NCBI GenBank assembly: GCA_002841695.1
Contig: PHAN01000009.1
Location: 1-52,484, forward strand
Length of the DNA stretch: 52,484 nt
Reading direction: 5' to 3'
Origin: Elusimicrobia bacterium HGW-Elusimicrobia-1
GTDB lineage: Bacteria; Elusimicrobiota; Endomicrobiia; PHAN01
Position numbers and translations under genes: made by a program. Under the pieces are notes generated by a model. It saw nothing but the letters and a program-made list of their open reading frames with translations. It was not told the DNA's origin and did no database searches. Each line of letters begins with the position of its first letter. Positions within the stretch are counted from its first letter, which is position 1. Positions 28,227 through 46,341 of the stretch are shown one piece after another.

Positions 28227-28260
<34 letters not shown>

Positions 28261-31795: not shown

Positions 31796-33448
31796 TTATT
31801 TAGATTTTTTGCTTGGAGCATCAGCTTTGGTATTATTGCCCGATAGTTTGGTGGTTGAAACAGGTTGGCTCGGAGTTATTGGCTTGGGATCTGGAAGCGT
31901 AGGGCTTGCCAAACTACTTTTTCTAATTATTTTATTGCTTTCAACGTTTTTAACATCTGGGGTCGTCGGACTAGCCAAACTTAACCCTCGGAATTCACCC
32001 ACATCCTTTTTCTTTTCCTTATCCATATCCCGCCTCCTGATTAAATCGGTCATACTTGTTTTAATCCAACTCTCCGCCTCTTTTTCACCCTTCTCTATTG
32101 CCATTTCAACGCCACGCTTGGCGATGTCGAGAAGGCTTTTTGATAATGCTTTTGCGTTATACATCTCCGTGATTTTCTTCTTAAGCTTATCCTGAACAAT
32201 TGCGGGCAAATCAGGTAAGATTATCCGTTTAAATTCATCATCCCCAATAGCAGTTAAAATTGTGCCGGAGCATCCTTTTTTAAGTTGTAATTGACCGACC
32301 AATGATCTGAGCAATACAAGCAAGGTTTCGGAATTTATCCTTTCTGAATTGATAACAAAAAAACCTGTTGAACATAAAGCGTTATCTAAATCATCGCTTA
32401 CCAAAGCAATGCTTGAAAGAGCCCCTTCAATGGTCGAAACAATGACATCTCCGGCATCAACCTTACGCCTTGCCCTGGTAGGCAATTCTTTGCCTTGCGC
32501 TTCGATAAATCCGTTGATATTTCCATTAGCTGAGATATTCGCAAGCTCAATATAACGGTAAGTCACATCGTCTTTAGGCTGAAAATTCTTGTCCTTAACC
32601 TTAACAATCTCGGCCAAAGGTTTATAGCCTTTTCTATATTGCTTAATACGTTCGACGACTTCCTCATACTTCGGCTGGAAGTATTCGGCATCGATGCGCT
32701 CGCTGTTCTGTGTGTCGGAGAATCTCTTGACGAAGGATAGATAATGCTTCGGCTTCCAATTTACAAGGCCAAGCTCGGAGAGAAGGGTTTGTTCGGCTTG
32801 GGAATAAAGAGATATTGAATTTTCTAATAGTTCAAATGATTTTCTGACTATATCAGATATACTATTTTGCAGGCCAAGCAAAATCGGAACTGCCATGTTT
32901 AATACTGCTGGATTTCCAACATTTCTTTGTCGGATGCCTTTTGCCCAGCGTTCAATATGGTCCCTGCAATATTTTGAGGAAAGAACTATAAATAAAAATT
33001 CAGGTGCGTTGATTTTGTCTTGCTTTTTTAGTCTAAGAAGCGCAACTCTCTGATTCCATGACAATTTTTCTTTGGGCGGATTAAATATTAGTTGCACTTT
33101 TCCGACATCGGGAGGATCGCCGGTTAAGGTCATTAAAATATCATTGTGTTTAAGATATTTTGCCTTAAATTCCTCAAAATATTTTCTTGAAACTCTTTCC
33201 CATGAATTAAAATCTCGTTTTTGAGTAACATCACCTATCTTTGAAATATAAATTTCTCCTTCAAAAGAAAACTCGTTTGAATCAAATGCATGCCCATTAG
33301 AAAAACTAACACAATCAATCAAAGAAAGTATATTTATCCGGTTCAACTGATTTTCTTCTTCAATATATTTTGGCAACCAAAATTCCGACTCGTATCTGAA
33401 ATCAGAATTTTCTTTTACCGTTTTATAATTTACAATGGATATTTGCAT
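31796..33448 (-). CDS. hsdS: Type I-like specificity subunit HsdS
   Basis: HsdS chooses the DNA target for the methyltransferase. The 550-residue protein has two target-recognition domains. The first runs to about residue 195 (ISKIGDVTQKRDF, DILMTLTGDPPDVGKVQLIF, NVGNPAVLNMAVPI) and the second to about 425 (YRYIELANISANGNINGF, DVIVSTIEGALSSIALV, LTAIGDDEFKRIILPDLP). Each is followed by a conserved helix (LENSISLYSQAEQTLLSELG and KKKITEMYNAKALSKSLLDIAKRG). The C-terminal 80 residues form a Lys/Ser/Pro-rich tail in which SLASPT-PD occurs twice; normal HsdS lacks it. It follows the HEPN gene by two bases. Confidence 0.88.
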   Translation of the reverse strand: MQISIVNYKTVKENSDFRYESEFWLPKYIEEENQLNRINILSLIDCVSFSNGHAFDSNEFSFEGEIYISKIGDVTQKRDFNSWERVSRKYFEEFKAKYLKHNDILMTLTGDPPDVGKVQLIFNPPKEKLSWNQRVALLRLKKQDKINAPEFLFIVLSSKYCRDHIERWAKGIRQRNVGNPAVLNMAVPILLGLQNSISDIVRKSFELLENSISLYSQAEQTLLSELGLVNWKPKHYLSFVKRFSDTQNSERIDAEYFQPKYEEVVERIKQYRKGYKPLAEIVKVKDKNFQPKDDVTYRYIELANISANGNINGFIEAQGKELPTRARRKVDAGDVIVSTIEGALSSIALVSDDLDNALCSTGFFVINSERINSETLLVLLRSLVGQLQLKKGCSGTILTAIGDDEFKRIILPDLPAIVQDKLKKKITEMYNAKALSKSLLDIAKRGVEMAIEKGEKEAESWIKTSMTDLIRRRDMDKEKKKDVGEFRGLSLASPTTPDVKNVESNKIIRKSSLASPTLPDPKPITPSQPVSTTKLSGNNTKADAPSKKSK

Positions 33449-33450
33449 AA

Positions 33451-34290
33451 TCAGACCTTTTTAGATATCTGAAAAATTGCGATTTTCAAGACCTGCCAAC
33501 ATAATTTAGCCGTATGCTCATCTGGATTAAAATGTTCGCTTGCTTGCGCATAAGGATGAATATAATTCCTAAAATTACGCAGTGCATGACTAAATTTTTT
33601 AACATCTTCATTTAGGAAATCGATCTCTTTTGCGACATCTATTAAATTGCTTAGAGCCCATTCATGAAATTGTAAAACTTTTCCGCTCTTATCTTTTGGA
33701 CTTGATGTCGTCACATTAAACTTTTGTGGATTATTTGATGCGATTCCAAGCAGTATACCTTCGAGTGTGCTACCACAAAGAAAAATGGTTGCTAAAGCCG
33801 CCTTTGAGTGCAAACATTTTTTTATCTCGTCAAGCCTTTGTTCAAGTATGCTTGTTATCGCTCCATCCAGTTTTAAAGAACTAATCGAAACTTCTTTAAA
33901 TTCTTTTTTTAGGAATTCATCTTCCGTGATATTTTCTTTACGCACCGATTTGCCGAGTAATCTATCGCCGATTTCCTTGCCTTTATCAACAAGGTTTTGA
34001 GGAAAATCGCTTTGCTTGAGAACCCCAATCAAAATTTGATTTTCGATGTATTCAATAAGTTTAATAATTGACTTGCCAGCCAAAGGATCTTCAGATACTT
34101 GCCAAAAGCCCCTCATACGGTTGGCTTTTGATCCGCTGGCATAATTATATTTTCCTTCATAGATATTAATACCAACATCATCATGGAAAAATTCTCCCAT
34201 TGTTCTATCTGAAAAATTAAGGACGTAACCTCCGCTCATTTGAAAAAGTTTCTCTAATACTTGCTTGTCATTTGTAGATAGATTTGCCAT
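33451..34290 (-). CDS. HEPN-domain protein, AbiJ-like
   Basis: The 279-residue protein begins with LSFSDRTMGEFFHDDVGINIY-like sequence (VLNFSDRTMGEFFHDDVGIN) and GSKANRMRGFWQVSEDPLAGKSI, which resembles the N-terminal domain of AbiJ-type abortive-infection proteins. The C-terminal half is helical and ends with the HEPN signature HALRNFRNYIHPYAQA, an Rx6H motif expected of HEPN ribonucleases. It sits between hsdM and hsdS with gaps of 13 and 2 bases, so the three are co-translated. RNA cleavage triggered by phage or by loss of methylation is a family-based inference. The ATG at 34290 is preferred over the TTG two codons upstream. Confidence 0.75.
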   Translation of the reverse strand: MANLSTNDKQVLEKLFQMSGGYVLNFSDRTMGEFFHDDVGINIYEGKYNYASGSKANRMRGFWQVSEDPLAGKSIIKLIEYIENQILIGVLKQSDFPQNLVDKGKEIGDRLLGKSVRKENITEDEFLKKEFKEVSISSLKLDGAITSILEQRLDEIKKCLHSKAALATIFLCGSTLEGILLGIASNNPQKFNVTTSSPKDKSGKVLQFHEWALSNLIDVAKEIDFLNEDVKKFSHALRNFRNYIHPYAQASEHFNPDEHTAKLCWQVLKIAIFQISKKV

Positions 34291-34303
34291 TGTCAAAATT
34301 AGA

Positions 34304-36352
34304 TCATTTCCAAAAACTTAATTTCTCTTTTTTCGCCCAATCAATAAACGCCTCGGCGATACCATCAGGAAGCTCGCCTTTATGGTTATGCAAATCGTGT
34401 TCAACGATTATGTGACCATATTTATCGAGTTTTGGCTTACCATTGCCATTCTTGACGTAAACATATTCACCAGAATTATCTTTGCCTGATTTATCAGAAA
34501 CAGCAAAGAAAATGGGATAATCCTTTCTCTTAGGACAAAGTTTATCGTCCCATTTTTGCAGAAATAGAACACTTGTCTTTGTTCCGGCGTGAGGCTTAAA
34601 AGTGTTGCCGTGCAGGCCCACAACTGCTAATATGCGGGCTTTGTTGGCTACATATTTTCGAAGGTCTTTATCTGAAAAATTATTAAGCCTACCCTGAGGC
34701 AAAACTATACCAAGACGTCCGCCGGGTTTTATAAAATCGAGATTGCGTTCGATGAAAAGAATATCACGACCAACCTTTGACTTAGGTTTGTTTTGTTTAT
34801 TATAACCGAGTTCATATTTATGAATGATGCGAGATTCTTTGATGTCACCGGCAAAGGGCGGATTAGCCATCAGGATGTCAAAAAGGAATTCCTTGTTCTG
34901 GCCTTTATCTTTCTTGAGAGCTTCAAGTCGTTTAAAACCACTGCCATAAGTCATAATCCAATCTTCATTCTTAGTGGTCTCGTTCCAGCGATCATAATCG
35001 AGAGTATTTAAATGCAAGACGTTTGTTTCACCGTCACCGGCAATCAGATTAAGTGTTCTGGCGACACGGACGACCTTTTCATCAAAGTCAATACCGAAGA
35101 CTTTAAGAACGTCCTCTTTTTCTTCTTGTGAAATCTCGGTATTTTCAAATAGATGGCCGGTTAACTGAAAGATGGTATGAACTGTAAATCCGCATGAGCC
35201 CGAGGCGGTGTCAATCATGTATTCGCCTTTTTGGGGATTGAGCATCTTGACGCACATGTCAATGACATGTCGAGGCGTGAAATACTGTCCCTTTTCGCCT
35301 TTAGAGGACTTACTCACCAAATATTCAAAGGCTTCGTCAATAACTTGGAGATTGGAGTTAAATAGCTTTACGTCTTGCAAACTGGAAACGCAGACGGAAA
35401 GATGAGACGGTGAAAGGTCAATCCTGCTTTCATCAGGGAATACCCCTGGCCACTTCTTTTTGGCCTCGTCAAAAAGTCTTTGAATCTTTTTCTTTAATTC
35501 ACCCTCTGATTGCCCAGTGTTTCTAAACTCAAGCACTCGGAAATCATTATCATCGACTTGCGAAATAACTTGTTTTAGTTTCTCATAATCACCATAATCT
35601 TTCTTTAAAATACGTTTAATTTCTCGATCCAAATAATCTTTATCTTTACTGCTTTTCATTTCATCATACAGTTTAGTAAAAATGAGTTTGAACACTTCTT
35701 CAAACGAATCAACACCTGCGCCAGCAAGAACCTCATCTTCCATTTCGGTGACTATCGTTTTTAATGATTTTCCCTCATTGGGAATTTTATCTTTCACAAT
35801 TAAATTCTTCCATGTGAATCGCTCTTTTATGATGTCTTCAAGGGTCTGATCAGCCTTTGGAATATCAGTTATATCCTCAAAGAAATTCGGGTCTTTGCGG
35901 TTATAGTGGGAAATCTGCCCCCCATTTGACCAAACACCAATCGGGGCCCCGGTAGCATTGCAATATGATTTAAGCTGATCTTTGCCATCCTTGAGTTTGG
36001 GCTTCTTAACCTCAACAATAATATATTCAACCGTCGGCCGGTCTTTATCAAATACTACGATATCCGCCAACTTGGTTTCTCTGCCAAATTGAACAGGGTG
36101 TTCAAAGCGGATGCGCTTTTTGGGGTACCCATAATCGTTGATGAGTTTTATCGCGTAGAGTTGGCGAACGATTTCTTCGGGCTTAAGCTGAACCTCTTTA
36201 TCCCGAACGATACAGCTGATATAGGGTTTGTTCTTCTGAACTTTTATTCTAGATTCGAGAGATTTGATAACGGCAGGAGAAAAGAGCGAAAGGTCGTAAC
36301 TTGAGTCCTTCAGAATGGAACGTAAAGTTATGTCATTTTTACCGTTTGGCAT
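34304..36352 (-). CDS. hsdM: Adenine methyltransferase with N-terminal nuclease domain
   Basis: The 682-residue protein fuses two parts. Residues 40-180 match the N-terminal domain of type I restriction HsdR: EIVRQLYAIKLINDYGYPK, ADIVVFDKDRPTVEYIIVEVKKPKLKDGKDQLKSY, with the Asp and ExK nuclease core. From about 330 an HsdM-type N6-adenine methyltransferase follows, with GQYFTPRHVIDMCV, the SAM motif IDTASGSCGFTVHTI and the catalytic NPPF in ILMANPPFAGDI. No translocase gene of HsdR type is in the operon. The layout therefore resembles BcgI-like enzymes, in which cleavage and methylation are in one subunit and HsdS is separate. AAGGAAGG precedes the ATG. It heads the operon hsdM, HEPN, hsdS, membrane protein. 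Confidence 0.9.
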   Translation of the reverse strand: MPNGKNDITLRSILKDSSYDLSLFSPAVIKSLESRIKVQKNKPYISCIVRDKEVQLKPEEIVRQLYAIKLINDYGYPKKRIRFEHPVQFGRETKLADIVVFDKDRPTVEYIIVEVKKPKLKDGKDQLKSYCNATGAPIGVWSNGGQISHYNRKDPNFFEDITDIPKADQTLEDIIKERFTWKNLIVKDKIPNEGKSLKTIVTEMEDEVLAGAGVDSFEEVFKLIFTKLYDEMKSSKDKDYLDREIKRILKKDYGDYEKLKQVISQVDDNDFRVLEFRNTGQSEGELKKKIQRLFDEAKKKWPGVFPDESRIDLSPSHLSVCVSSLQDVKLFNSNLQVIDEAFEYLVSKSSKGEKGQYFTPRHVIDMCVKMLNPQKGEYMIDTASGSCGFTVHTIFQLTGHLFENTEISQEEKEDVLKVFGIDFDEKVVRVARTLNLIAGDGETNVLHLNTLDYDRWNETTKNEDWIMTYGSGFKRLEALKKDKGQNKEFLFDILMANPPFAGDIKESRIIHKYELGYNKQNKPKSKVGRDILFIERNLDFIKPGGRLGIVLPQGRLNNFSDKDLRKYVANKARILAVVGLHGNTFKPHAGTKTSVLFLQKWDDKLCPKRKDYPIFFAVSDKSGKDNSGEYVYVKNGNGKPKLDKYGHIIVEHDLHNHKGELPDGIAEAFIDWAKKEKLSFWK

Positions 36353-36509
36353 GTTGGGCCTTCCTTTGTGTTTGACGTCAGCAACCGCGACGAAGACGCC
36401 CGGGCTATGTCGTTTCTGCCGTCAAGAGGTTACAAAACATCGTCTGTCCCCGCTCTATTTTGGGTGTCGCGTTATTCTATCATTCTATTGGATTTTATTC
36501 AACACAAAT

Positions 36510-36818
36510 TTATCTCGTTTCGGCCTTTATCCACTTCTCAAAATCCGCATTCGCAGTGACCGGGATTTTCATTATGCAGGGCGTCTCGTAGGGATGGAGT
36601 TTTTCGACGGCGGATCTGACTTTTTGCCAGTTTGCGGTTCTGGTCTTTACGATGGCGACAACCTCGCGGGCGGTTTCGATTTTTCCTTTCCACCAGTAGG
36701 AACTTTCTATCGGGAAGAAGTTGGCGCAGGCGATGAGGCGTTTTTTAAGAAGGTGCGAAGCGATTTTCTTGGCGGTTTTTATGTCGGGGTTGGTGATGTA
36801 GATGATTATGAAACTCAT
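36510..36818 (-). CDS. cutA: CutA1 family protein
   Basis: The 102-residue protein has the normal length and motifs of CutA1: ITNPDIKTAKKIASHLLKKRLIACANFFPIESSYWWKGKIE, then VKTRTANWQKVRSAVEKLHPYETPCIMKIPV. CutA1 forms a very stable trimer long linked to divalent metal tolerance, although its molecular role is debated. GAGGGG lies just upstream of the ATG. It stands alone and is higher in GC than the restriction operon beside it. Confidence 0.95.
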   Translation of the reverse strand: MSFIIIYITNPDIKTAKKIASHLLKKRLIACANFFPIESSYWWKGKIETAREVVAIVKTRTANWQKVRSAVEKLHPYETPCIMKIPVTANADFEKWIKAETR

Positions 36819-36926
36819 AAATCCCCTCTTATTTGAGGCGCAAATTATTGTATGAAATTACGACGGCGCTTCAAACTGAAACCGACTCCGAATATGCGGA
36901 TATTCCGTCGCACGCCCCGCTCCTCA

Positions 36927-38063
36927 TCACACCACAAAATCCAGATAATTTTCCTTTGTTATCACTTTGTAGACGGAGTTTTTGTATGCTTCGCGCCATT
37001 CTTTCGGCGCGGCGTTTTTCTTGCGGTCTTTGCCCCACTTGATTTCGTAGCCGTGAAGTTTGCCGCCGCGCTCTTCGATGAGGTCTATCTCTTTTCTGTC
37101 GTAAGTTCTCCAGAAGTAGTTGTTGGCGCGGAGCCGTTTATATTCCTGCTTTTTGAGCATCTCCACGACGATATAATTCTCCCACAACATCCCGACGTCG
37201 TTGCGCATCGAGAGCGGATTAAAATTGTTTATCAGCGCGTTTCGGATTCCCGTGTCCTGAAAATAATATCTCGGATTCTTGACGATTTCATTGCGCAGGT
37301 TTCTTGAGAAACCCGTCATCTTGAAGACGACGAATGATTTTTCAAGAAGGTCGAGATAACGCTCGATGGTATTTTTGCTCATCGCAAGATGTGTGCCGAG
37401 TTCGGTGTAAGAAACCTCTTTTCCGATTTGAAACGCCAGCAGTTGAAGAAGTTTCCCGAGTTTGTCGGAGTGCCTGACACCTTCGAGTTCCAAGATGTCT
37501 TTATACAGATATGAACTTACGATTTCCCTCAAGTACTCTTTTTTTATCGAGTCGCCCGCGCTGACGACCACTTCGGGATAACTGCCGTAGAGAAGGCGGT
37601 TTTCAAGACGGGCGGATGTCTCGGCGCGCGTCTCAACCGCCGAAAGTTCAAGTTGAGAAAGCGGAAAGAGTTTCAGAGTGTATTTCCGTCCGGTGAGCGG
37701 CTCGCCGACTTCTTTCGCCAAGTCGAACGACGAAGAACCGCTCGCAAGAACTTTTATTCCCTCGATGTGATCCAGAATCAGTTTTATGTTCAGGCTGATA
37801 TCTTTTACTCTTTGCGCCTCGTCTATCACAAGTATTTTGTTCTTTCCGACGAAGTTTCGGAGTTTCTCTATCGAGCGGCTTGAGAGATAATCCTGAACGG
37901 TTATGTCTTCGCCGCTTACGAAAAGATATTTTTCTTTGAAGTTTTTGCTCGACTCTTTAAGGAGCGTGGTTTTCCCGCAACGGCGCGGGCCGTAGATTAT
38001 AAGGGCCTTGCCTTTTTTAAGATATTTCGGGATGTTCTTCAAATGATATTGCGGGATATACAC
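36927..38063 (-). CDS. AAA ATPase with DUF4143, second copy
   Basis: Walker A YGPRRCGKTTLL (about residue 25), Walker B ILVIDEAQRVKD and the sensor KVLASGSSSFDLAKEVGEPLTGR are intact. A winged helix follows (YTELGTHLAMSKNTIERYLDLLEKSFVVFKM), and the DUF4143 end carries YDRKEIDLIEERGGKLHGYEIKWG, a PD-(D/E)XK-like Asp and ExK. The frame is open to 38087, but an AAGGAG six bases before the GTG at 38063 decides the start, giving 378 residues. The promoter carries two operator-like repeats, so its expression is probably repressed. Function in the cell is unknown. Confidence 0.85.
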   Translation of the reverse strand: MYIPQYHLKNIPKYLKKGKALIIYGPRRCGKTTLLKESSKNFKEKYLFVSGEDITVQDYLSSRSIEKLRNFVGKNKILVIDEAQRVKDISLNIKLILDHIEGIKVLASGSSSFDLAKEVGEPLTGRKYTLKLFPLSQLELSAVETRAETSARLENRLLYGSYPEVVVSAGDSIKKEYLREIVSSYLYKDILELEGVRHSDKLGKLLQLLAFQIGKEVSYTELGTHLAMSKNTIERYLDLLEKSFVVFKMTGFSRNLRNEIVKNPRYYFQDTGIRNALINNFNPLSMRNDVGMLWENYIVVEMLKKQEYKRLRANNYFWRTYDRKEIDLIEERGGKLHGYEIKWGKDRKKNAAPKEWREAYKNSVYKVITKENYLDFVV

Positions 38064-38085
38064 GGCGGGCTCCTTCGGGTTTATC

Positions 38086-38140
38086 AAAATACGGTCATTA
38101 AACTGACTGAATTATATAAAATACGGTCAGGCAATGTCAA
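38086..38140 (-). promoter_or_regulatory. Promoter with paired operator repeats for the ATPase
   Basis: On the minus strand TTGACA (38135-38140), 18 bases and TATAAT (38111-38116) form a near-perfect promoter. The direct repeat TGACCGTATTTT occurs on both sides of the -10, at 38118-38129 and 38086-38097. This looks like a repressor site. Confidence 0.7.
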
Positions 38141-38268
38141 GCGCGACGGCGGGAACGCCCTATATTATCGGATGCAACCGCTAACCCCAAAAAATGCCGG
38201 TCGGGTCACGACGGACTTCATCAAGAAGCGCGGCGAAACTTTTTGTCGGTTTGACGAGCGTATAAATG
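38133..38268. repeat. Direct repeat left of the abiE cassette
   Basis: About 135 bases, including the last 30 codons of the DUF3024 gene, recur at 39970-40108 with roughly a dozen differences. The cluster of abiEi and abiEii lies between the two copies. Confidence 0.9.
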
Positions 38269-38525
38269 TGCCAACGATTATTGCGGTCTCTGTAATAAAG
38301 CGTCCACTCTTGACGCCCGGCGACAAACCGAAATCTGGCGACATTCGTTTGCGTCCACCTCGACGGGTCGCGGAAGTACGGTCTTTCTTCCAGAAGCGTG
38401 ACGGCGTTCCCCTTTATCGCAAAAACAATCCGCAACTGATGACGCACTTCCGGCGGTGCCATCGTATCACAGAAGTTCCGCAGCGAATTTTCAATCTTGA
38501 CGCGAATGTTTTCCGGCAAACTCAT
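38181..38525 (-). CDS. DUF3024 family protein
   Basis: The 114-residue protein matches DUF3024: VRHQLRIVFAIKGNAVTLLEERPYFRDPSRWTQTNVARFRFV, then EWTLYYRDRNNRWHIY and the ending LLDEVRRDPTGIFWG. The family's function is unknown; members are widespread and often sit near toxin-antitoxin or mobile genes. Start at 38525 has only a weak upstream purine stretch (GAGGTAATTCTATG-like). It lies directly downstream of the abiE pair on the same strand. Its 3' end is duplicated on the far side of that pair. Confidence 0.85.
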   Translation of the reverse strand: MSLPENIRVKIENSLRNFCDTMAPPEVRHQLRIVFAIKGNAVTLLEERPYFRDPSRWTQTNVARFRFVAGRQEWTLYYRDRNNRWHIYTLVKPTKSFAALLDEVRRDPTGIFWG

Positions 38526-38588
38526 AGAATTACCTCGGTAGAATTGCTGTTTATTTTCAAAAAAAACCGCGCTCGCGAACGGGCGGCG

Positions 38589-39347
38589 CTACCGTCCGAT
38601 TTGTCTTGAAAGTTCCGCCGCGAACGCCCTTTCAAAATCGCGCGCGACGGCGTTCTGGTCGGCGGGCAAAAACGCGCCGAGTTCCCGCCGGAAATCTATC
38701 TTTTTGGCGTAAGCGATTATCTTGTCCTTCATCCCCGCCAGACGGCGTTTCTGAGCCGGCGAAAGCATTCCCTTTCGCATAATGAAATAAAGGTCGTAGA
38801 AGTCGCGCGGTTTTTTCCTGTCCATCAACGCCCCGAATACCTTTTCATCCACCAGTTCTATTTGCGGAAGATGAACGAGCGTATAACTCGGCACAAAATC
38901 ACTCGCCACGCTCTCCACCTCGCCCCGTCCGCCGACAGCGCGCCGGGCCGATACGTTTATCTCGACGCCCGTCGGGCGGTAGTCGTGAATCCTGAAAGTC
39001 GCCGTGCCGAAATATCCGCCGCTGGTGGCGCCGGATTTGGCTCCTATTTCAACCCTTATGCCGACTCTTTCCGCCGCCGCAAGCGCGCGCAGAAACAAAT
39101 CTTCCACGAACGGTTTTATTCTGTCGGAACGCACGCCCGACAGAGAAAAGTCCAGGTCCTCCGAAAATCGCGGACTGCCGTATACGATACGCAGAGCCGT
39201 CCCGCCCTTAAACAAAAGTTTTTCCGACTCGGGCAGTTTGTAGAGTTCGGCCAGAAATACGTGCTGAAAATATTCGCGCACCACGTTCGGAAAAACCGCC
39301 GTGCGGTATTGGAGGGCTAATTTTTCGAGTGTTTCTGCGGTTATCAT
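38589..39347 (-). CDS. abiEii: AbiEii-type nucleotidyltransferase toxin
   Basis: The 252-residue protein carries the DUF1814 nucleotidyltransferase signature: LLFKGGTALRIVYGSPRFSEDLDFSLSG (residues 40-70), the GG and DxD metal-binding motif. Downstream are the conserved LVDEKVFGALMDRKKPRDFYDLYFIMRKG segment and a helical C-terminus. Related toxins transfer nucleotides to tRNA and stop growth during phage infection. Its ATG overlaps the antitoxin stop by four bases, the normal abiE arrangement. Confidence 0.92.
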   Translation of the reverse strand: MITAETLEKLALQYRTAVFPNVVREYFQHVFLAELYKLPESEKLLFKGGTALRIVYGSPRFSEDLDFSLSGVRSDRIKPFVEDLFLRALAAAERVGIRVEIGAKSGATSGGYFGTATFRIHDYRPTGVEINVSARRAVGGRGEVESVASDFVPSYTLVHLPQIELVDEKVFGALMDRKKPRDFYDLYFIMRKGMLSPAQKRRLAGMKDKIIAYAKKIDFRRELGAFLPADQNAVARDFERAFAAELSRQIGR

Positions 39348-39943
39348 CGCAATATCTTCTTTATTGTTTCATCAAGAGCCGCGTTGGCGAAAAGTCGGGC
39401 GTAGCGCGCGGCTTTTTTGATGTTGATTTTATCTTTTTTGAAGCGGTTGAGCGGCTCAATGCCGTCGAGAACTCGGAAATAACACGAGTCGACGAACGCT
39501 TTTTCCGGGTCGGCTATAAAAAATCCCGCGCCGCCCTGTTTTTGGGCGGCGTATCCCGTGAAAGCGGCTTTTTTTATCCGTCGGTACGAATAGATTTTAT
39601 CCAATGCGGTGAAACGGCGGGTCGCCTTGGGAGTTACCGAGGTAATTTCGTAAACGCTCTCCGGGATGACGCCGTGATACGAAAGGGCGAACTCCAAAGA
39701 CACGTAAGAGGGCTCGTATAGTTTATTGGCGATGAAAGGTTCAGGCGGAAGCGCGTCGGGCAGGGCGTAGAGTCCGCGTTTGATTCTTACGATGAACCCC
39801 TTTTTGGCGTAGCGATGAAGAAGAAAATCAGCCGCGACTTTGGAACTCCCGAACAAACGCCGGACCTCGGCGGAAGCAAAGAGTTTTATTCTCTTTTCCC
39901 TGATGATTTTGTTGAAATCGTGCCAATTCACTAATTTAGCCAT
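39344..39943 (-). CDS. abiEi: AbiEi-type antitoxin and repressor
   Basis: The 199-residue protein has an N-terminal winged helix (KLFASAEVRRLFGSSKVAADFLLHRYAKKGFIVRIKRGLYAL) and the AbiEi C-terminal domain (YVSLEFALSYHGVIPESVYEITSVTPKATRRF, then ADPEKAFVDSCYF). AbiEi proteins bind their own promoter and neutralise the toxin. Two copies of a palindromic TAATTTAGC box overlap and precede its start codon, consistent with autorepression. Confidence 0.92.
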   Translation of the reverse strand: MAKLVNWHDFNKIIREKRIKLFASAEVRRLFGSSKVAADFLLHRYAKKGFIVRIKRGLYALPDALPPEPFIANKLYEPSYVSLEFALSYHGVIPESVYEITSVTPKATRRFTALDKIYSYRRIKKAAFTGYAAQKQGGAGFFIADPEKAFVDSCYFRVLDGIEPLNRFKKDKINIKKAARYARLFANAALDETIKKILR

Positions 39944-39957
39944 ATTGCTAATTTAGC
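39931..39957. promoter_or_regulatory. Probable abiE operator
   Basis: CTAATTTAGC at 39931-39940 and GCTAATTTAGC at 39947-39957 are two near-palindromic boxes over the abiEi start. They suit autoregulation by AbiEi. Confidence 0.6.
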
Positions 39958-39969
39958 AAAATAACTAAG

Positions 39970-40108
39970 GAATGTCAAGGGGCTGCGGGCGGGATCGCCC
40001 TATATTATCGGATGCAACCGCTAACCCCAAAAAATGCCGGTCGGGTCACGACGGACTTCATCAAGAAGCGTGTCGAAATTTTTCGTCGGTTTGACGAGCG
40101 GGTAAATG
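39970..40108. repeat. Direct repeat right of the abiE cassette
   Basis: Second copy of the 135-base repeat at 38133. It includes a DUF3024 3' remnant and stops abruptly after the codons for LVKPTK. Confidence 0.9.
40027..40108 (-). pseudogene. DUF3024 3' fragment
   Basis: On the minus strand LVKPTKNFDTLLDEVRRD followed by PTGIFWG and TAG repeats the end of the intact DUF3024 protein. The rest of the gene is missing. Confidence 0.85.
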
Positions 40109-40191
40109 AGAAATATCAAATCATCCAAATATAATCCGTCACCCTGTCAAGTCATCAAGAAATGTAACCCGTCCTTGATAAGTTGGTTGGC

Positions 40192-40220
40192 TTGACAAAT
40201 TTTTATTTTTTTGCTATCAT
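40192..40220 (+). promoter_or_regulatory. Promoter of the DnaB-like gene and its leader
   Basis: TTGACA (40192-40197), 17 bases and TATCAT (40215-40220) would begin a transcript about 15 bases before the 87-base structured leader. It is the best match to consensus in the AT-rich block. The rest of 40,109-40,242 shows no other feature. Confidence 0.75.
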
Positions 40221-40242
40221 ACATTTGTAACAATATCAAAAA

Positions 40243-40329
40243 CAGTGTGGAGTTAGAAGGAATAAATCCTGCACTATAAATAAAGAAAACCTTCCTGCGG
40301 ATAAAAGCCGCGGAAGGTTTTTTATTTTT
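40243..40329 (+). ncRNA. 87-base leader RNA with terminator, copy E
   Basis: A first fold pairs AGTG with CACT and AGGA with TCCT around ATAAA. A second, strong hairpin (ACCTTCC...GGAAGGT with inner GCGG/CCGC) ends in a T-run just before the ribosome site GGAGG of the next gene. GAAGG of the first fold could instead pair with CCTTC of the terminator, which is the logic of an attenuator. It is 92 percent identical to copy F at 42,659. Confidence 0.7.
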
Positions 40330-40338
40330 GGAGGTTTT

Positions 40339-40788
40339 ATGAGATTTGCTCAAAAAAAGAAAGATTCTTCTTTGAAATTTTTAGCGGATATTGTGGCGAG
40401 CAAAAAACGGGTTATTATTGTATTTTCTCCGCTCTTAAGCAAGGAAAAATTCATGATGAGGCTTCTTTGCTTGAATTCTGGGATAGATTGTTCAGATATG
40501 GATGAAAGGACAATACCAAAATCTGAGTGGCCGAAGCTTACTTTTGCTGCTGATAACTTATGTAATTCAAAACTTTATATTGATGATTCATCTAATTTAA
40601 CATTACTGGAAATGAAAAAGAGAATTGAACGTTTAAGAAATTCTTTAGCGACGAAAAAGTTGAATATAGACCTCGTGGTTATATATACTACAGAAGCGTT
40701 TTTAAGCGGTAATCCCAAAAATAAAAAAATATTATTGTCACAAATTATGAAAATAGCGCCCGCTTCCGCAGGATTGATGCTTCTTTAG
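40339..40788 (+). CDS. Truncated DnaB-like protein without ATPase motifs
   Basis: The 149-residue protein resembles the middle of the DnaB helicase RecA domain. KRVIIVFSPLLSKEKFMMRLLCLNSGID corresponds to the DnaB segment with SLEMS, KLYIDDSSNLTLLEMKKRIERLR corresponds to plyIDDtp.lti, and NIDLVVIYTTEAF corresponds to LIVVDYLQL. The Walker A loop is absent, the catalytic Glu of SLEMS is replaced, and the Walker B Asp is replaced by Tyr. It can hardly hydrolyse ATP. It might bind DnaB or act as a structural relative; this is speculation. GGAGG lies four bases before the ATG, directly after the leader terminator. Confidence 0.55.
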   Translation: MRFAQKKKDSSLKFLADIVASKKRVIIVFSPLLSKEKFMMRLLCLNSGIDCSDMDERTIPKSEWPKLTFAADNLCNSKLYIDDSSNLTLLEMKKRIERLRNSLATKKLNIDLVVIYTTEAFLSGNPKNKKILLSQIMKIAPASAGLMLL

Positions 40789-40803
40789 TAAACAAATTAA
40801 AAA

Positions 40804-40839
40804 AACTTCGTATAGAAAAATCTGTGTGGGGTTTTTTAT
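40804..40839 (+). terminator. Terminator just before the zinc-ribbon gene
   Basis: AACTTCGTATAGA pairs over 13 positions (with G-U pairs) with TCTGTGTGGGGTT around AAAA and is followed by six Ts. Its T-run ends about five bases before the AGGAGGAGG ribosome site. The position mirrors leaders E and F, though the sequence is diverged. Confidence 0.55.
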
Positions 40840-40854
40840 TCAGGAGGAGGTTTT

Positions 40855-41112
40855 ATGGCAGGAGTGCAGGCAAAACTTTGTGGGAGTTGTGGATTCGGCA
40901 ATAAGGCCGACGAGTGCGTAAAGTGTGGGCAGCCTTTTGCTACCATTGAAGCACAATTATGCAATAATTGCGGTTTTGGAGCAGCCGGTGATAATTGTGT
41001 CAAATGCGGAGCATGGGTCGGCAGTAATTCTGTGCCTGCTAAATTGTGCAGTTCTTGTGGTTTTGGTTCCGGCAAAGACAACTGTATTAAATGCGGCAAT
41101 TGGGTTGGATAA
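40855..41112 (+). CDS. Triple zinc-ribbon protein
   Basis: The 85-residue protein is three tandem copies of one unit: LCGSCGFGNKADECVKCG, LCNNCGFGAAGDNCVKCG and LCSSCGFGSGKDNCIKCG. Each has CxxC and CxxCG knuckles ready to bind one zinc, with short linkers. There is nothing else in the protein. The near identity of the units points to recent internal duplication. AGGAGGAGG precedes the ATG. Binding of nucleic acid or protein is likely for such ribbons but not shown. Confidence 0.85.
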   Translation: MAGVQAKLCGSCGFGNKADECVKCGQPFATIEAQLCNNCGFGAAGDNCVKCGAWVGSNSVPAKLCSSCGFGSGKDNCIKCGNWVG

Positions 41113-41139
41113 AATTAGAAATTAAATCCTTAAGAGGCT

Positions 41140-41281
41140 ATCCGACCCCGACTTGTCGGGGCGAGGTGTGCGTCATTCCCGAGTGCCTTTATCGGGAATC
41201 CATTTTACGTTGGAAATACCGAACCTCTGGATGCCCGATTACGGATTTCGGGCATGATAATAGAGGTTGTCGACAACCTCT
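41140..41281. repeat. Mosaic of palindromic repeats
   Basis: Successive hairpins are CCCCGACTTGTCGGGG (41146-41161), a CATTCCCG...CGGGAATCC unit of the same kind as at 6,591, ATGCCCGAT...TCGGGCAT, and the perfect 20-bp palindrome AGAGGTTGTCGACAACCTCT (41262-41281). This is a typical REP mosaic. It separates the zinc-ribbon gene from the nuclease gene. Confidence 0.75.
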
Positions 41282-41308
41282 CAAGTATCTCAAAAAAGAT
41301 TAAATAAA

Positions 41309-42028
41309 ATGATTGAAGCCGAACTGCATCATAAAATAGAAAAATGTGAAGATGTCCTAACTTCATCTGTATTTGGTTTATTAAAACATAAATTTGCGAC
41401 TGGTTTATTAAAAGATTTTTTAGGGCGAGCGAGATTATATTTTAATGAAAAATATGATGAGAAAAAATTATTTGAAAATGAGATTTTAAAGAATAAACTA
41501 TTTGACAAGGAATATAAATTTATTTTTTGGAAGAGATATGAAAAATATGGCGAACCAGATATTATTATTTCTGGCAGTGATTTTGTTGTATTAATCGAAG
41601 TAAAAGATGACGCGAAAGAATCTTCTCAAAATCAATTAGCAGATTATTACACTTTATTAGAAGAAAATTATGCCACTAAAAAAAATATGTATCTGATATA
41701 TTTGACAAAGGATTTATATCAACCTGAAATTTCCGATGATATTACTAAATTAAAGGGTAAAAATTTTTATTGGCTTTCTTGGTATGATATTTGCCATGCT
41801 TTAAAAAATACAGATGAAAAAAAGAATGAGGCATTGTATGAAATAGCAGAATATTTAAAAGAATATCTGAGAGAATGCAGAGATATTTTTCTTTTTGATG
41901 GTTTTGGTGAATATAAAGAAGTGAAAAAAGAAAAACCTTTGTTTTGGAGAGGAGAAACAATTATTTTTTCAGAATATAATAAGATAGGTTTAAGTAAACC
42001 TATTTTCTGGGGAGGCGAAAATGCTTGA
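41309..42028 (+). CDS. PD-(D/E)XK nuclease-like protein
   Basis: The 239-residue protein starts MIEAELHHKIEKCEDVLTSSVFGLLKH, the usual opening of a group of restriction-like proteins (LTSSVFG). It then has the core KYGEPDIIISGSDFVVLIEVKDDAKESSQNQLADYY with Asp and ExK. The middle (NMYLIYLTKDLYQPEI, YWLSWYDICHAL) fits the same fold. I chose the ATG at 41309; the frame extends upstream into a repeat. It overlaps the next gene by eight bases. Very AT-rich composition points to recent transfer. A defence role is inferred from family and partner. Confidence 0.75.
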   Translation: MIEAELHHKIEKCEDVLTSSVFGLLKHKFATGLLKDFLGRARLYFNEKYDEKKLFENEILKNKLFDKEYKFIFWKRYEKYGEPDIIISGSDFVVLIEVKDDAKESSQNQLADYYTLLEENYATKKNMYLIYLTKDLYQPEISDDITKLKGKNFYWLSWYDICHALKNTDEKKNEALYEIAEYLKEYLRECRDIFLFDGFGEYKEVKKEKPLFWRGETIIFSEYNKIGLSKPIFWGGENA

Positions 42029-42620
42029 TAAGAGTAAGAATGTTTTTGATATGGTAAGGCAGATGCAAGATTTGTATAAAGAGATAGGTGGGTTTATGAG
42101 ATACTTTGAAAAAATTGTCGGTGAGAATGACTATGAACCAATTACAAATTCTTCAACCGTGATAAAAGAAATTTCTCAGTCTTTGAATGATTCAGAATCT
42201 TGGCTTCCAATATGGATGTATCGGACATATCAGAATAAAAAGAATAAAAATGAGTTAATGTCAATCAATATTGCTTTAGATTATCCACTTTATCGCGATA
42301 GAATAATAGAACCATTAGTATTAATATCTAAAATTGAGGGCAAAAAAATTGACCGCGAATTTGCGTGGTATCCGTGGGATATATATTTTCATTTTAGAAC
42401 ACGTGAAAAACAAGTTGAAAAACAAAAAGACAAAGTTTATCTTTTAAAAGATTTAGATTTAGATAATAAAGATACAGAAGAAGAAGGAGTGATAAAAGGT
42501 AATTTTGAGGCAATTGAAAAATTAAAATTTATTGCAGTTCCTCTGATGGAAATTGAAAATGAAAAAGCAATAAAAGCAATAATAGAAAAATTGATAAACC
42601 CCCTTTTAGAAGTAGAATAG
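42021..42620 (+). CDS. Unknown partner of the nuclease gene
   Basis: I do not recognise this 199-residue protein. It is acidic and soluble, with a helical start (KNVFDMVRQMQDLYKEIGGFMRYFEKIVGE), a beta-rich middle containing SESWLPIWMYRTYQ and SINIALDYPLYRDRIIEPLVL, a run of charged residues (LDLDNKDTEEEG) and a last helix. Its start lies inside the end of the nuclease gene, so the two are translated together and may form a complex, for example nuclease and regulator. Base composition matches the nuclease gene. Confidence 0.7.
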   Translation: MLDKSKNVFDMVRQMQDLYKEIGGFMRYFEKIVGENDYEPITNSSTVIKEISQSLNDSESWLPIWMYRTYQNKKNKNELMSINIALDYPLYRDRIIEPLVLISKIEGKKIDREFAWYPWDIYFHFRTREKQVEKQKDKVYLLKDLDLDNKDTEEEGVIKGNFEAIEKLKFIAVPLMEIENEKAIKAIIEKLINPLLEVE

Positions 42621-42658
42621 TAAAACATCTAACAAGTTTACTTTTTTGATTATTATAA

Positions 42659-42745
42659 CAGTGTGGCGTTGGAAGGAATAAATCCTGCACTATAAATAAA
42701 GAAAACCTTCTTGCAGACAAAAACTGCGGAAGGTTTTTTATTTTT
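42659..42745 (+). ncRNA. 87-base leader RNA with terminator, copy F
   Basis: Same length and order of parts as copy E, seven differences in 87 bases. In the terminator stem GCGG/CCGC of copy E has become GCAG/CTGC, a paired change that keeps the helix. The T-run ends about ten bases before the GGGAGGG ribosome site of the AAA+ gene. A promoter is less obvious than for copy E. Confidence 0.7.
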
Positions 42746-42765
42746 AGAAACGGGAGGGTAAAAAA

Positions 42766-44073
42766 ATGGGGCCGCCAACAGAATTGCATAAATCGACAAT
42801 GGAATGGGTAGCGGGTTCTCTTGCAAATGCGATGCAGTCCCCGGTTAAATTATTAGATACTTTTTTTGTGGATATTGATTCAGAAGAGATTTGTTTATTT
42901 TTCGGTTGCAAAAGAGACGAGTTGTTTTTAATAAGAGGGGGCGTTTTTTATTACAATGAAAAATTTTTTAAGATTTTAACCGAATATTTTACCGCGAATG
43001 GTTTTACGAAAATAAAAGAGACTGGCAAATGGAAAACAGCAATGAATCTTGCCATACATTCGGGCGAAAAGTCCAATCCGCTTATTGACGGGCTTCAATT
43101 CTATGAAAATCATAAAGATAAATTGGTTTTGTCCTGCGGATGTTTTAATCCGTTTGAAAGAAGGACCTTTTTCTACATAGATTTTATTGTTCACAAAGAG
43201 TGCAGGGAAATCGTTTCAACGATTTACAATCGTATTTTCTCCGATTGCTCTCTGAAAGGAAAAATTATTACAAAGGACAGGGAAGAAATTTGCCTTGATA
43301 GAAAATATTCTTTCGATGAACTTGTTCTCGATAATGAAAAAATACAACTCATCAAGGAAAACACAATCGGGTTTTTAAAAAACAAAGATATTTTTAGTAA
43401 ATACAACATACCGTTTAAACGTGGGATTATTTTGGAAGGTTCGCCCGGGAACGGAAAAACACTCCTCGGCAAAATATTGGCTTCAACTGGTATGTTCACG
43501 GTTATATGGATAACCCCCAGGGGTTTTACGGGGTCGGAAAGCGCCGAACTGGTAAAAAGGATATATGAATTTGGGAATAAACTTTCGCCGACATTAATAT
43601 TTTGGGAGGATGTGGACCTAACAATTTCAAACAGGCAAGGTAACAAAGATAATGCAATATTAGGCGAACTGTTAAACCAACTTGACGGATTAAACGCCAT
43701 TTCGGGCATAGTAACTATTGCGACTACAAATATGACGGAAGCGCTGGATAATGCATTGAGTCATAGACCTAACAGATTTGACCTGCGCATAAAATTTGAT
43801 AACCCCGATTACAACACAAGAATAAAAATGCTTTCTAAATTCACGGAAGACGTAATTTTGTCGGACGATATAAAGTTTGAAATTATTGCAGAAAAATCGG
43901 AAGGGTTCAGCGGCGCCTGTATGAAAGAAATGGTTCTGGAGGCAAAGAAGTTCGCTATTATTGATGGGTCTTACAATGAGATGGATAAAATTATATTGAG
44001 AAAAGAATACATGGATAAATCATTAGAAAAAACTAAAAAAATAGTAGAAACAGTGACGCCTCTTGGTTTTTAG
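42766..44073 (+). CDS. AAA+ ATPase with unknown N-terminal domain
   Basis: The 435-residue protein has an N-terminal domain of about 190 residues that I do not recognise, then one AAA+ module. This has Walker A EGSPGNGKTLLGK near 224, pore-type segment PRGFTGSESAELV, Walker B TLIFWEDVDL, sensor 1 IATTNM, the arginine-finger stretch HRPNRFDLR and sensor 2 in GFSGACMKEMV. The layout is like BCS1/FtsH-related remodelling ATPases but without protease or membrane helix. A tandem 17-base duplication (GGTTTTTAGCGATA twice) spans its stop codon. Control by the leader RNA is likely. A defence or element-maintenance role is possible. Confidence 0.82.
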   Translation: MGPPTELHKSTMEWVAGSLANAMQSPVKLLDTFFVDIDSEEICLFFGCKRDELFLIRGGVFYYNEKFFKILTEYFTANGFTKIKETGKWKTAMNLAIHSGEKSNPLIDGLQFYENHKDKLVLSCGCFNPFERRTFFYIDFIVHKECREIVSTIYNRIFSDCSLKGKIITKDREEICLDRKYSFDELVLDNEKIQLIKENTIGFLKNKDIFSKYNIPFKRGIILEGSPGNGKTLLGKILASTGMFTVIWITPRGFTGSESAELVKRIYEFGNKLSPTLIFWEDVDLTISNRQGNKDNAILGELLNQLDGLNAISGIVTIATTNMTEALDNALSHRPNRFDLRIKFDNPDYNTRIKMLSKFTEDVILSDDIKFEIIAEKSEGFSGACMKEMVLEAKKFAIIDGSYNEMDKIILRKEYMDKSLEKTKKIVETVTPLGF

Positions 44074-44098
44074 CGATATTGGTTTTTAGCGATAATGG

Positions 44099-44149
44099 AA
44101 AAAGGCGGCAAAGGTATTTTTTGCATCTTTGTCTTTCCCCCGCCTTTTA
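44099..44149 (+). terminator. Terminator after the AAA+ gene
   Basis: AAAAAGGCGG and CCGCCTTTT arms enclose a 31-base loop and are followed by a short T-run and AATTAT. It ends the AAA+ transcript before the promoter of RNA copy C. Confidence 0.6.
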
Positions 44150-44173
44150 ATTATCCCATAGTAAAGCCCCTAC

Positions 44174-44203
44174 TTGACAACGCTCAAGATATTTAGGTAG
44201 AAT
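44174..44203 (+). promoter_or_regulatory. Promoter of RNA copy C
   Basis: TTGACA (44174-44179), 18 bases and TAGAAT (44198-44203). The transcript from about 44,210 to 44,368 would carry two extra hairpins (GATGCG...CGCATC and CGCCCC...GGGGCG) ahead of the conserved element. Confidence 0.65.
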
Positions 44204-44297
44204 CACCGGCAGATGCGGATTGGCAAACAATCGCATCGCCTCCGGCGCCCCGGTTTGTGGGGCGGCGGCGAAGCAGATAGTGTCGTAATTTCACATT

Positions 44298-44368
44298 AGT
44301 GCTTGTGGGGGATGCCCAAGGCACTTATTGGTTCCGCAGAAGGCGGAACTGGTAAGTGCCTTTTTTAA
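44298..44368 (+). ncRNA. Two-hairpin RNA element, copy C
   Basis: First hairpin GTGC...GCAC with inner TGGG/CCCA; second GGCACTTA...TAAGTGCC with inner TTCCGC/GCGGAA and a six-T run. GGCAC is shared by both. It lies in tandem with copy D, 172 bases upstream of it, and no gene separates them. Confidence 0.68.
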
Positions 44369-44404
44369 TTTACGCGGGTCCGCGACAAGTTCAAACACTT
44401 TGAC

Positions 44405-44433
44405 TTGACAAGAGGCCGTAATTTGAGTAAAAT
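44405..44433 (+). promoter_or_regulatory. Promoter of RNA copy D
   Basis: TTGACA (44405-44410), exactly 17 bases and TAAAAT (44428-44433). A transcript from about 44,440 ending at the T-run near 44,541 would be about 100 bases long. Confidence 0.7.
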
Positions 44434-44469
44434 CATGACAGTAGTAGGCAGTGTCACAATATCGTCACA

Positions 44470-44541
44470 GGTGCTTGTGGGAGACAAACCCAAGGCACTT
44501 ATCGAGCAAGTCGGGGACTTGCGCGGTAAGTGCCTTTTTTA
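44470..44541 (+). ncRNA. Two-hairpin RNA element, copy D
   Basis: First hairpin GTGC...GCAC with inner TGGG/CCCA and loop AGACAAA; second GGCACTTA...TAAGTGCC with inner GCAAGT/ACTTGC and a six-T run. It ends 43 bases before the small-protein gene of the excision module and has its own promoter. It therefore acts either as a leader-attenuator of that operon or as a free small RNA. Confidence 0.7.
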
Positions 44542-44583
44542 GTTTCAGCGGGCGCGCGATAAAATCGGCGTAAGGGTGTAAAT

Positions 44584-44922
44584 ATGTCCGCCAAAATAAA
44601 CGAACTCAAACTTAAAAATGCGTTACACCGGTTCTGTAGCGGCGAAACAACGGGCCGGATCCTGGCGAAACTCGCCGACGGAAACATCGTCCACGTGGAG
44701 ACGATGGAGCAAACGTTTCCGCGGGCGGGGGCGCCGGTCGGCAAGCCCGACGTGCTTCCGGCAAAGTGTGCCGCTTTCATAGAGCGGCGCATCGGGACGG
44801 ACTTCTTCGGCGACATTACCGTCGATATCATTCACGGCAAGATTCTCGACGTCAGAGTCAAAAAAATATACAAGCCGCGAGACATTGAAAAAGAAATCTG
44901 CGGCGCGGGGAGCGCTCGATGA
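44584..44922 (+). CDS. Small conserved protein paired with HTH, copy 2
   Basis: The 112-residue protein is a paralogue of the one at 25,175, with the shared FCxGxxTG segment near residue 18 and the VKKxY ending. The mid-part is more acidic. It is followed by the excisionase-like HTH with a four-base overlap and then the integrase, so the three form one operon behind RNA copy D. The family is not recognised. A role in recombination directionality or in control of the operon is an inference. Confidence 0.75.
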   Translation: MSAKINELKLKNALHRFCSGETTGRILAKLADGNIVHVETMEQTFPRAGAPVGKPDVLPAKCAAFIERRIGTDFFGDITVDIIHGKILDVRVKKIYKPRDIEKEICGAGSAR

Positions 44923-45128
44923 GCATCAAACGACTGCTTAATATAGACGAAGCCGCCGAGTACACCGGATTGAAAAAGAACACGCTTTATTCCTGGGTGT
45001 GCCAGCGACGACTGACTTTCGTGAAGTGCGGCCGGCGGACGATGTTCGACATAAAAGATTTGGAGCGGTGGATTGAGGCGAATAAAACCGAAGAAAAGAA
45101 AATTGCCGCGAAAAACGATATTTTGTAA
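44919..45128 (+). CDS. Excisionase-like HTH protein, copy 2
   Basis: The 69-residue protein has the HTH_17 fold: LLNIDEAAEYTGLKKNTLYSWVCQRRLTFVKCGRRTMFDIKDLERWIEA. This is the usual form of small excisionases (recombination directionality factors), and it lies directly upstream of the integrase. Its start overlaps the previous gene (ATGA). It most likely decides between integration and excision of this element. Compared with copy 1 it has a longer, lysine-rich tail. Confidence 0.88.
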   Translation: MSIKRLLNIDEAAEYTGLKKNTLYSWVCQRRLTFVKCGRRTMFDIKDLERWIEANKTEEKKIAAKNDIL

Positions 45129-45153
45129 AATACTTATGCGGGGAGAGAAACCA

Positions 45154-46341
45154 ATGGGACTCACGAGAAAAGGCGATAACTGGTTCATCGATTATTACGC
45201 CGGCGGCCGTCGGAAGAGAGAGAAAATCGGCGCGAGCAAAAAACTCGCCGAGCAGGTTCTCGCCAAAAGAAAAACCGAAATCGCCGAGAACAGGTATCTG
45301 GACATCAAAAAAGAGAAAAATATACCGTTTCAAAAGTTGACCGAACTTTATCTGTCATACGCGCGGACGAACAAAAAGTCGTTTTCAAACGACATTCATT
45401 ACATGAAAAAATTCATCGAGTTCTTCGGCGACAGAAACATCTCAGGGATAACGCCGCTTATGGTCGAGCAGTTCAAAGCCGCGCGCAAAGACGCCCTCTC
45501 CGAAGCGACGATAAACCGGTATCTTTCCGTCTTAAAACATATGTTCAACAAGGGTATCGAGTGGGGGCTTTGCGACGGCAATCCCGTCAAGAAAGTGAAG
45601 TTGTTCAAAGAGAACAATTCGCGTATCAGGTATCTGGAATTTGACGAGATGAATAAGCTACTCGATAACTGCTCGGATTTCCTCAAACCCGTCATATTGA
45701 CGGCTCTGAATACCGGAATGCGGCAGGGCGAAATACTCAATCTTAAGACGGAAGATGTTGACTTAAAAAGAAAAATAATATATATTAGAAAAAGCAAAAG
45801 CGGCGAATCGAGAGAGTGCCCGATAAACTCGGTTCTGTCGGAAACTTTTCAATCGCTCGAAAAAAATCCGAAAAGCCCGCACATTTTTTTGGATAACGAA
45901 GGGCAGAAACTGGGCCGCTTCGTGGTGAGATATTCTTTTGAAAAAGCGGTCAAACAGGCGGGCATCGAAGATTTTCACTTTCACGATTTGAGGCACACTT
46001 TCGCTTCGCATCTGGTTATGGCAGGCGTGGATATTATGACAGTCAAAGAACTTTTGGGACACAAAACACTGAAGATGACTTTGCGTTACAGCCATCTTTC
46101 GCCCGGTCATAAGAGCGCGGCGGTCGAGACGCTGGGCGCGAGCTTGCGGAAAAATATGGACACTTTTTGGACACTTGAGGGTGGTCGGGAAGAAAAAGGC
46201 GTTTCGGATGGTATACAAAAATCACTGAAAAATGATACAATAGATGACAATGGGCAGGTGGCGGAGTGGTTAATCGCACCAGACTGTAAATCTGGCGTCC
46301 TTAGGACTGCGAAGGTTCGAATCCTTCCCTGCCCATTTTGA
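45154..46341 (+). CDS. int: Tyrosine recombinase (integrase)
   Basis: The integrase inserts and excises the element at tRNA-Tyr. A basic N-terminal arm-binding domain (RKGDNWFIDYYAGGRRKREKIGASKKLAEQVL) and a SAM-like core-binding domain are followed by the catalytic domain. Its active-site residues are R in TALNTGMRQGEIL, K in RKSKSGESRECPI, HxxR in FHDLRHTFASH, H in LLGHKTLKMTLRYSH and the tyrosine in that last segment. I chose the ATG at 45154 because GGGGAGAG lies seven bases upstream; an ATG at 45136 next to a TAAAAT box is possible. The last 29 residues are translated from the tRNA gene, giving 395 residues. In the circle the protein would be 391 residues with a different end. Confidence 0.93.
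   Translation: MGLTRKGDNWFIDYYAGGRRKREKIGASKKLAEQVLAKRKTEIAENRYLDIKKEKNIPFQKLTELYLSYARTNKKSFSNDIHYMKKFIEFFGDRNISGITPLMVEQFKAARKDALSEATINRYLSVLKHMFNKGIEWGLCDGNPVKKVKLFKENNSRIRYLEFDEMNKLLDNCSDFLKPVILTALNTGMRQGEILNLKTEDVDLKRKIIYIRKSKSGESRECPINSVLSETFQSLEKNPKSPHIFLDNEGQKLGRFVVRYSFEKAVKQAGIEDFHFHDLRHTFASHLVMAGVDIMTVKELLGHKTLKMTLRYSHLSPGHKSAAVETLGASLRKNMDTFWTLEGGREEKGVSDGIQKSLKNDTIDDNGQVAEWLIAPDCKSGVLRTAKVRILPCPF
46156..46176. repeat. Arm-type repeat pair inside int
   Basis: A tandem of TGGACACTT units identical over 21 bases to 17347-17367. It lies 76 bases before the right core and encodes MDTFWTL of the integrase. Confidence 0.6.
46252..46335 (+). tRNA. tRNA-Tyr (GTA), attR site
   Basis: The 84-base class II tRNA has acceptor GGGCAGG/CCTGCCC with discriminator A, anticodon stem CCAGA/TCTGG with loop CTGTAAA (anticodon GTA), a long variable arm and the T-arm GAAGGTTCGAATCCTTC. 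CCA is not encoded. Bases 1-39 come from the element and the rest from the chromosome, so the gene was rebuilt on insertion. Its present upstream sequence has TACAAT about 16 bases ahead but no clear -35, so expression may depend on the integrase transcript. Confidence 0.97.

Follow-up and report, generated by a model that had tools for sequence, protein, structure and literature searches.

Integrase genes that span their own attachment sites

The described system closest to ours is that of the Myxococcus phage Mx8, whose Int and IntX are reportedly the subject of papers by Tojo in 1996 and Magrini in 1999. In the passages on Mx8 cited here, attP lies within a tyrosine integrase gene, and integration makes a new int 3′ end that encodes a different C terminus: 112 residues give way to 13, and the integrase becomes less active (PMC4701971, PMC6070905). 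A small excisionase gene, uoi, sits directly upstream of Mx8 int. Archaeal SSV-type ‘suicidal’ integrases also carry the attachment site inside the integrase gene (PMC8371274), as do streptococcal ICEs in rumA, which differ in using a serine integrase and a protein-coding target (PMC4701971). The integration-dependent immunity of mycobacteriophages likewise places attP in a coding gene and exchanges a functional C terminus at a tRNA site, but there it is the repressor that is affected, through loss of an ssrA-like tag, and int is uncut (PMC9262239). The principle of an integrase gene spanning its attachment site is known from Mx8, SSV and the rumA ICEs, and these are also the very few elements known to regulate a recombinase by rewriting the gene that encodes it.

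Islander, a catalog of 3919 islands, places in its relevant passages 159 that leave a 5′ tRNA fragment and supply the 5′ part of the tRNA; the same passages note integrases extending across attP and describe no conserved int tail there (PMC4383910). Among the papers searched, none reports the integrase clade treated here. What we add is a 5′-half tRNA setting outside phages, a recurrence across a bacterial phylum set against non-overlapping controls, and comparative evidence suggesting that the circular-state C terminus is under selection.

An element that rebuilds half a tRNA gene

The window, by which we mean the whole stretch of 52,484 bp that was analyzed, contains a 29,055-bp element inserted in the tRNA-Tyr gene of an Elusimicrobiota contig. 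Its main features are as follows.

17236..46290, no strand: integrative element, from core repeats, tRNA fragment and Pfam TrwC
17197..17235, + strand: attL core, the displaced 5′ half of the host tRNA-Tyr, including the anticodon and the A’s after it
46252..46290, + strand: attR core, within int and within the intact tRNA-Tyr
46251..46336, + strand: tRNA-Tyr (GTA), ARAGORN; 5′ half element-derived, 3′ half chromosomal
45154..46341, + strand: int, a tyrosine integrase by Pfam PF00589; 395 aa when integrated, with C-terminal residues read from tRNA-Tyr
44919..45128, + strand: small HTH_17 protein of 69 aa (Pfam HTH_17, 1.7e-14), directly upstream of int

The two cores are 39 bp each and identical at 38 of 39 positions, with a sole mismatch of C at 17212 and T at 46267. 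The core corresponds to the 5′ half of tRNA-Tyr and ends just after the anticodon. The full Islander signature is present, with an intact tRNA at one end, a displaced fragment at the other and an integrase between them in the correct orientation; as in the 5′-fragment islands of that catalog, the 5′ part of the tRNA comes with the element and a 5′ fragment stays behind. A TrwC-type (MOBF) relaxase gene at 20970-23663 suggests that the element is mobilizable or conjugative. It was found by searching 20 window proteins, a subset of the ORFs, against Pfam, and none of the 20 matched mating-pair genes.

GenBank holds a near-identical contig under HGW-Elusimicrobia-3. In our genome set, a contig of G195 (PHAL01000028.1) matches the window contig except for a 97-bp deletion at 17440-17536. 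G195 belongs to another family, and one of the two genomes probably received the shared contig through misbinning; we rejected the G195 copy as an independent state of the element, since it is the same contig minus 97 bp.

One integrase gene, two C termini

Int scores 131 bits against PF00589 (cut-off 27.1) and has the catalytic residues R190, K215, H277, R280, H303 and Y312, of which R280 is nearly invariant and the rest invariant in 21 relatives. Its predicted structure consists of an N-terminal domain with a three-stranded sheet and a helix, which is plausibly an arm-binding domain, followed by core-binding and catalytic domains. Residues 339-395 mostly have pLDDT below 50. In SSV-type integration the gene is split and inactivated (PMC8371274); here Pfam, the catalytic residues and the predicted model all find the catalytic domain whole in the integrated copy, and the tail alone changes.

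In the chromosome, the int frame runs through the core and tRNA-Tyr, then one TTT codon, to a TGA at 46339-46341. Joining the ends at 46290/17236, the predicted circular form, gives instead an integrase of 391 aa that ends in SGPADEKSQTKK, with TGA at 17272-17274.

17236..17274, + strand: circular-form int tail, 12 codons (SGPADEKSQTKK) and TGA in the joined frame
17273..17303, + strand: intrinsic terminator from a terminator scan, 10-bp stem and T-run directly after the tail; kept in the tRNA-His element

Because int runs across the element’s own attachment site, its tail is swapped at insertion into the tRNA gene, 12 codons being exchanged for 16. A sequence-only reading of this DNA had proposed a frame through the core, a 391-residue joined form with its own stop, a terminator after the tail, and exchange of the int 3′ end on integration. 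The first three are all present in the sequence, and the anatomy bears out the fourth.

With the attP core in its frame and a different C terminus in each state, the window int is of the Mx8 type. The likeness extends to the HTH_17 protein, which, like uoi, lies directly upstream of int and from its position is likely to be an excisionase or directionality factor. There are differences. Mx8, in the passages cited above, swaps 112 residues for 13, and the window int 12 for 16; the window element is non-phage and rebuilds the 5′ half of a tRNA gene. BLASTP between the two integrases gave no significant similarity (E = 0.5). From its sequence the window int would work like Mx8 Int, with kinship supported only to superfamily level.

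The junction base also has a counterpart. Contig C7 of genome G002, which has no terminal overlap, shows a joined att configuration, either a circle or a tandem copy; its ends meet at the equivalent base, and arm sites flank the junction. A contig of G283 (C6) was considered as another joined int and rejected, being an attL with a short int-tail remnant upstream. Collections of plasmids and phages yielded no circular close relative, only distant integrases (best about 33% identity among the matches listed), and a search of viral_contigs returned only relatives of 39% identity or less.

Arm-type sites in the integrase tail

Three exact copies of TGGACACTTTTTGGACAC occur in the window, and all of them adjoin att sites.

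46157..46174, + strand: presumed arm-type site TGGACACTTTTTGGACAC, inside int; present in relatives
17348..17365, + strand: presumed arm-type site of the left end, exact repeat; equivalent in several relatives
17472..17489, + strand: another copy of the arm repeat at the left end; missing in the G195 contig

The second left-end copy lies within the 97-bp stretch deleted in the G195 contig. Several relatives have an equivalent left-end site ~105-113 bp after the core, and relatives carry a tandem repeat of the same type in the int tail, which in L011 falls in a different reading frame. Int would extend to the core because of these repeats, the DNA from catalytic domain to core being attP. This raises the question of whether the overlap is simply a neutral by-product of compaction, in which int runs into arm site, promoter and core DNA because these have to be its neighbors, the tail need only do no harm and the swap regulates nothing. 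We regard this as a serious possibility, although we lean somewhat against it. The arm motif TGGACACTNTTTGGACACC is conserved as DNA and is read in another frame in L011, and the disorder predicted for most of residues 339-395 also fits.

An arm-like repeat, GGTCACTTTTTGGTCACTT, also lies outside a tRNA-Ser element of G000, ~95 bp upstream of its attL (contig C3; L126, oriented position ~9970). It suggests that this tRNA-Ser was already the target of an older element.

Relatives and their targets

Relatives were drawn from 341 Elusimicrobiota genomes plus others, and 72 of the 341 have int matches at E <= 1e-40. Many of these integrases lie directly upstream of a same-strand tRNA, and at least 14 kinds of tRNA are involved. 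Most of them end upstream of the tRNA or within its first 20 bases, and this enzyme class can therefore do without a state-dependent tail. In 9 of the 41 relatives with a same-strand tRNA downstream the frame stays open across the core, mainly at tRNAs Tyr, His, Gln, Ser and Leu, whose 5′ halves allow an open frame. The through-type is confined to one half of a tree of 65 integrases, on which it requires four to five changes. The sequence-only reading had held that related integrases ending naturally before the tRNA would speak against it. Such integrases do occur in other lineages of the clade, which makes the overlap optional, but not absent here. An optional overlap, found mainly where the tRNA permits it, is also what neutral compaction would predict; sister elements at other tRNAs without overlap serve as natural controls.

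The counts do not support a frame held open within the core in particular. Given that the tRNA is reached, the int frame passes through in 9/15 cases and other frames in 4/9, so an open frame is by itself unremarkable.

The window genome has two more through-core elements, in tRNA-His and tRNA-Ser, whose integrases are 53% and 44% identical to the window int. Intact tRNA-Tyr genes without int occur in three genomes related to the occupied G283, namely G281, G282 and G285.

The circular-form tail looks selected

Ten through-type elements, the window element included, have both ends found, and the circular-form tail with its stop, which the sequence-only reading had suggested looking for in relatives, recurs in all of them. 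The joined tails are given by target tRNA.

Tyr, window: SGPADEKSQTKK, 12 codons
His, same genome: TVPADENLETEK, 12 codons, equal in position and length to the window tail, same terminator as the window
Ser, G000: QGEEKKPPTENPPSDGKTPTET
Ser, G331: NAKDEDKETPSEKPISDEKKEK
Tyr, G222: KPKDPPIENPGQ
Tyr, G233: CQEPPSENDEKT
Tyr, G283: SLFEPFEFSEEEPKKPPFSDEK
Gln, G281: LSEPVSSPSDDKP
Gln, G283: LSAPVSDPSDDKP
Leu, G066: TDNPPSNPDSTPPSPSNPV

A stop 11-22 codons after the core occurs in the int frame of 10/10 elements and in 4/20 of the two other frames (Fisher p about 3e-5). With six non-overlapping elements added as controls the comparison figure becomes 6/38 (Fisher p 1e-6), and collapsing the elements to seven left-end families gives p 4e-5; the elements are related, so these p-values are guides only. 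The circular tails are acidic and proline-rich, with 25% D/E, no R and 12% hydrophobic residues. Other frames after the core have 4% D/E and 18% R, and the integrated tails are 43% hydrophobic. Measured from the catalytic Tyr, the circular form extends 74-87 residues and the integrated form 66-98 (nine elements).

The residues themselves are another matter. In four close pairs the tail before the core has 33 non-synonymous against 12 synonymous codon differences, compared with 93 against 254 in the catalytic part. Its residues are thus unconstrained, and we rejected conservation as protein for this pre-core part, a drift that again accords with neutral compaction. After the core, DNA motifs of the type CCGACGRAAAA recur, also in the non-coding left end of the G002 element, so constraint on DNA may underlie part of the likeness among tails. 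Neutral compaction by itself gives no account, however, of 10/10 stops at 11-22 codons or of an acidic, arginine-free composition, seen in the int frame only. From stop distance and composition together, selection appears to have acted on the length and character of the circular tail, whose residues are not strictly conserved.

Could the alignment of frames be coincidental, the real int ending earlier? Freely varying tail residues would be expected in that case, but there is no in-frame stop between the catalytic Tyr and the tRNA and the pattern repeats in ten elements, and we give coincidence very little credence.

Terminators, promoters and the tRNA

The terminator at the left end invites comparison with phage lambda. 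Lambda attP, unlike that of the window element, lies outside the int coding sequence. There is nonetheless a likeness, in that a signal beyond attP controls lambda int only in the circular state; this retroregulation by sib is documented (cited in PMC6379469). Integration might similarly serve to move a terminator or processing signal away from int, leaving the protein tail irrelevant. The terminator directly after the tail is kept in the Tyr and His elements of the window genome despite 53% integrase identity, and in the Tyr element of G233 a hairpin overlaps the stop. In a simple hairpin scan, the left ends of the Ser elements (G000, G331) and of the G222 Tyr element showed no such terminator, whereas all ten have a coded tail. 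Termination would also be useful simply to shield the element from transcription begun at the stranded tRNA promoter. On balance we doubt the lambda-like explanation.

17146..17175, + strand: original host tRNA-Tyr promoter, TTGACG-18-TATAAT (promoter scan 11/12), stranded at attL
46212..46241, + strand: promoter-like site for the rebuilt tRNA, TATACA-18-TACAAT (promoter scan 9/12), inside the int tail

By these predicted sites, the host promoter stays behind at attL when the element integrates, and the rebuilt tRNA has to rely on a weaker promoter-like site within int. The terminator would end int transcription in the circle and, in the integrated element, transcription from the stranded promoter. 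The earlier reading was right that integration sets int transcription ahead of an essential tRNA, but the tRNA also receives a promoter-like site from the element. A congener, G001, has the same tRNA-Tyr site and the same downstream gene with element remnants only (C15, L054:2838-3103). The remnants, about 80% identical, are the equivalents of 44172-44268 and 46114-46250. There is a stop in the old int frame, and int is gone from this decayed copy except for its 3′ tail, with a -10 box of TATAAT. The int tail has thus served as tRNA 5′ flank after loss of the remaining int: an element can take over a tRNA’s promoter, and G001 keeps the int remnant in front of its tRNA-Tyr.

Elsewhere at the left end of the window element, a perfect TTGACA-17-TATAAT promoter at 17587-17615 stands before the first element gene (17624-18733, a DUF4143 ATPase).

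A model for state-dependent integrase

The reading we prefer, and think probable, is that the window element has a tyrosine integrase from a clade that targets the 5′ halves of tRNA genes and keeps its attP core in the 3′ end of int in the manner of Mx8, that the circular C terminus is the selected one and the integrated C terminus a by-product, and that the integrated gene may yield a less active integrase. The joined sequence gives int a short, acidic, presumably disordered tail and its own stop, with an adjacent terminator in the window, His and G233 Tyr elements. Comparison of relatives points to this C terminus as the one kept open, short and hydrophilic. Integration replaces it with tRNA-encoded residues and an accidental stop, and rebuilds tRNA-Tyr behind the element-borne promoter-like site. 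The exchanged tail may lower integrase activity, and processing of tRNA-Tyr out of an int read-through transcript may cut the int message before its stop codon. Both effects together would make integration the favored reaction of the circle and restrain re-excision as long as the HTH protein is absent. By analogy, such tuning of the integrase by integration state is plausible.

A stricter version would make RNase P the off-switch. Read-through transcripts would be cut at the tRNA-Tyr 5′ end (46251), inside the int frame, giving a stop-less message, and the protein made from it would be tagged and degraded; the circle has just half a tRNA and would yield full-length integrase with its own stop and terminator. 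We consider this switch improbable. If true, it would hold for all elements whose int frame runs through the core.

Cargo and internal repeats

The cargo at 23892-42028 is rich in defense-like genes, among them a YhcG-type nuclease, a DpnII-like protein, type I restriction subunits, an AbiE toxin-antitoxin pair, a DUF4143 ATPase and a PD-(D/E)XK nuclease. A DnaB C-terminal fragment lies at 40339-40788. On the minus strand, 23696-23815 is a relic of the N terminus of another integrase, 50% identical to int residues 2-41 and with one stop. There are two apparent repeats within the element: 38129-38268 with 39968-40108 (142 bp at 91%), and 40241-40329 with 42657-42745 (89 bp at 92%).
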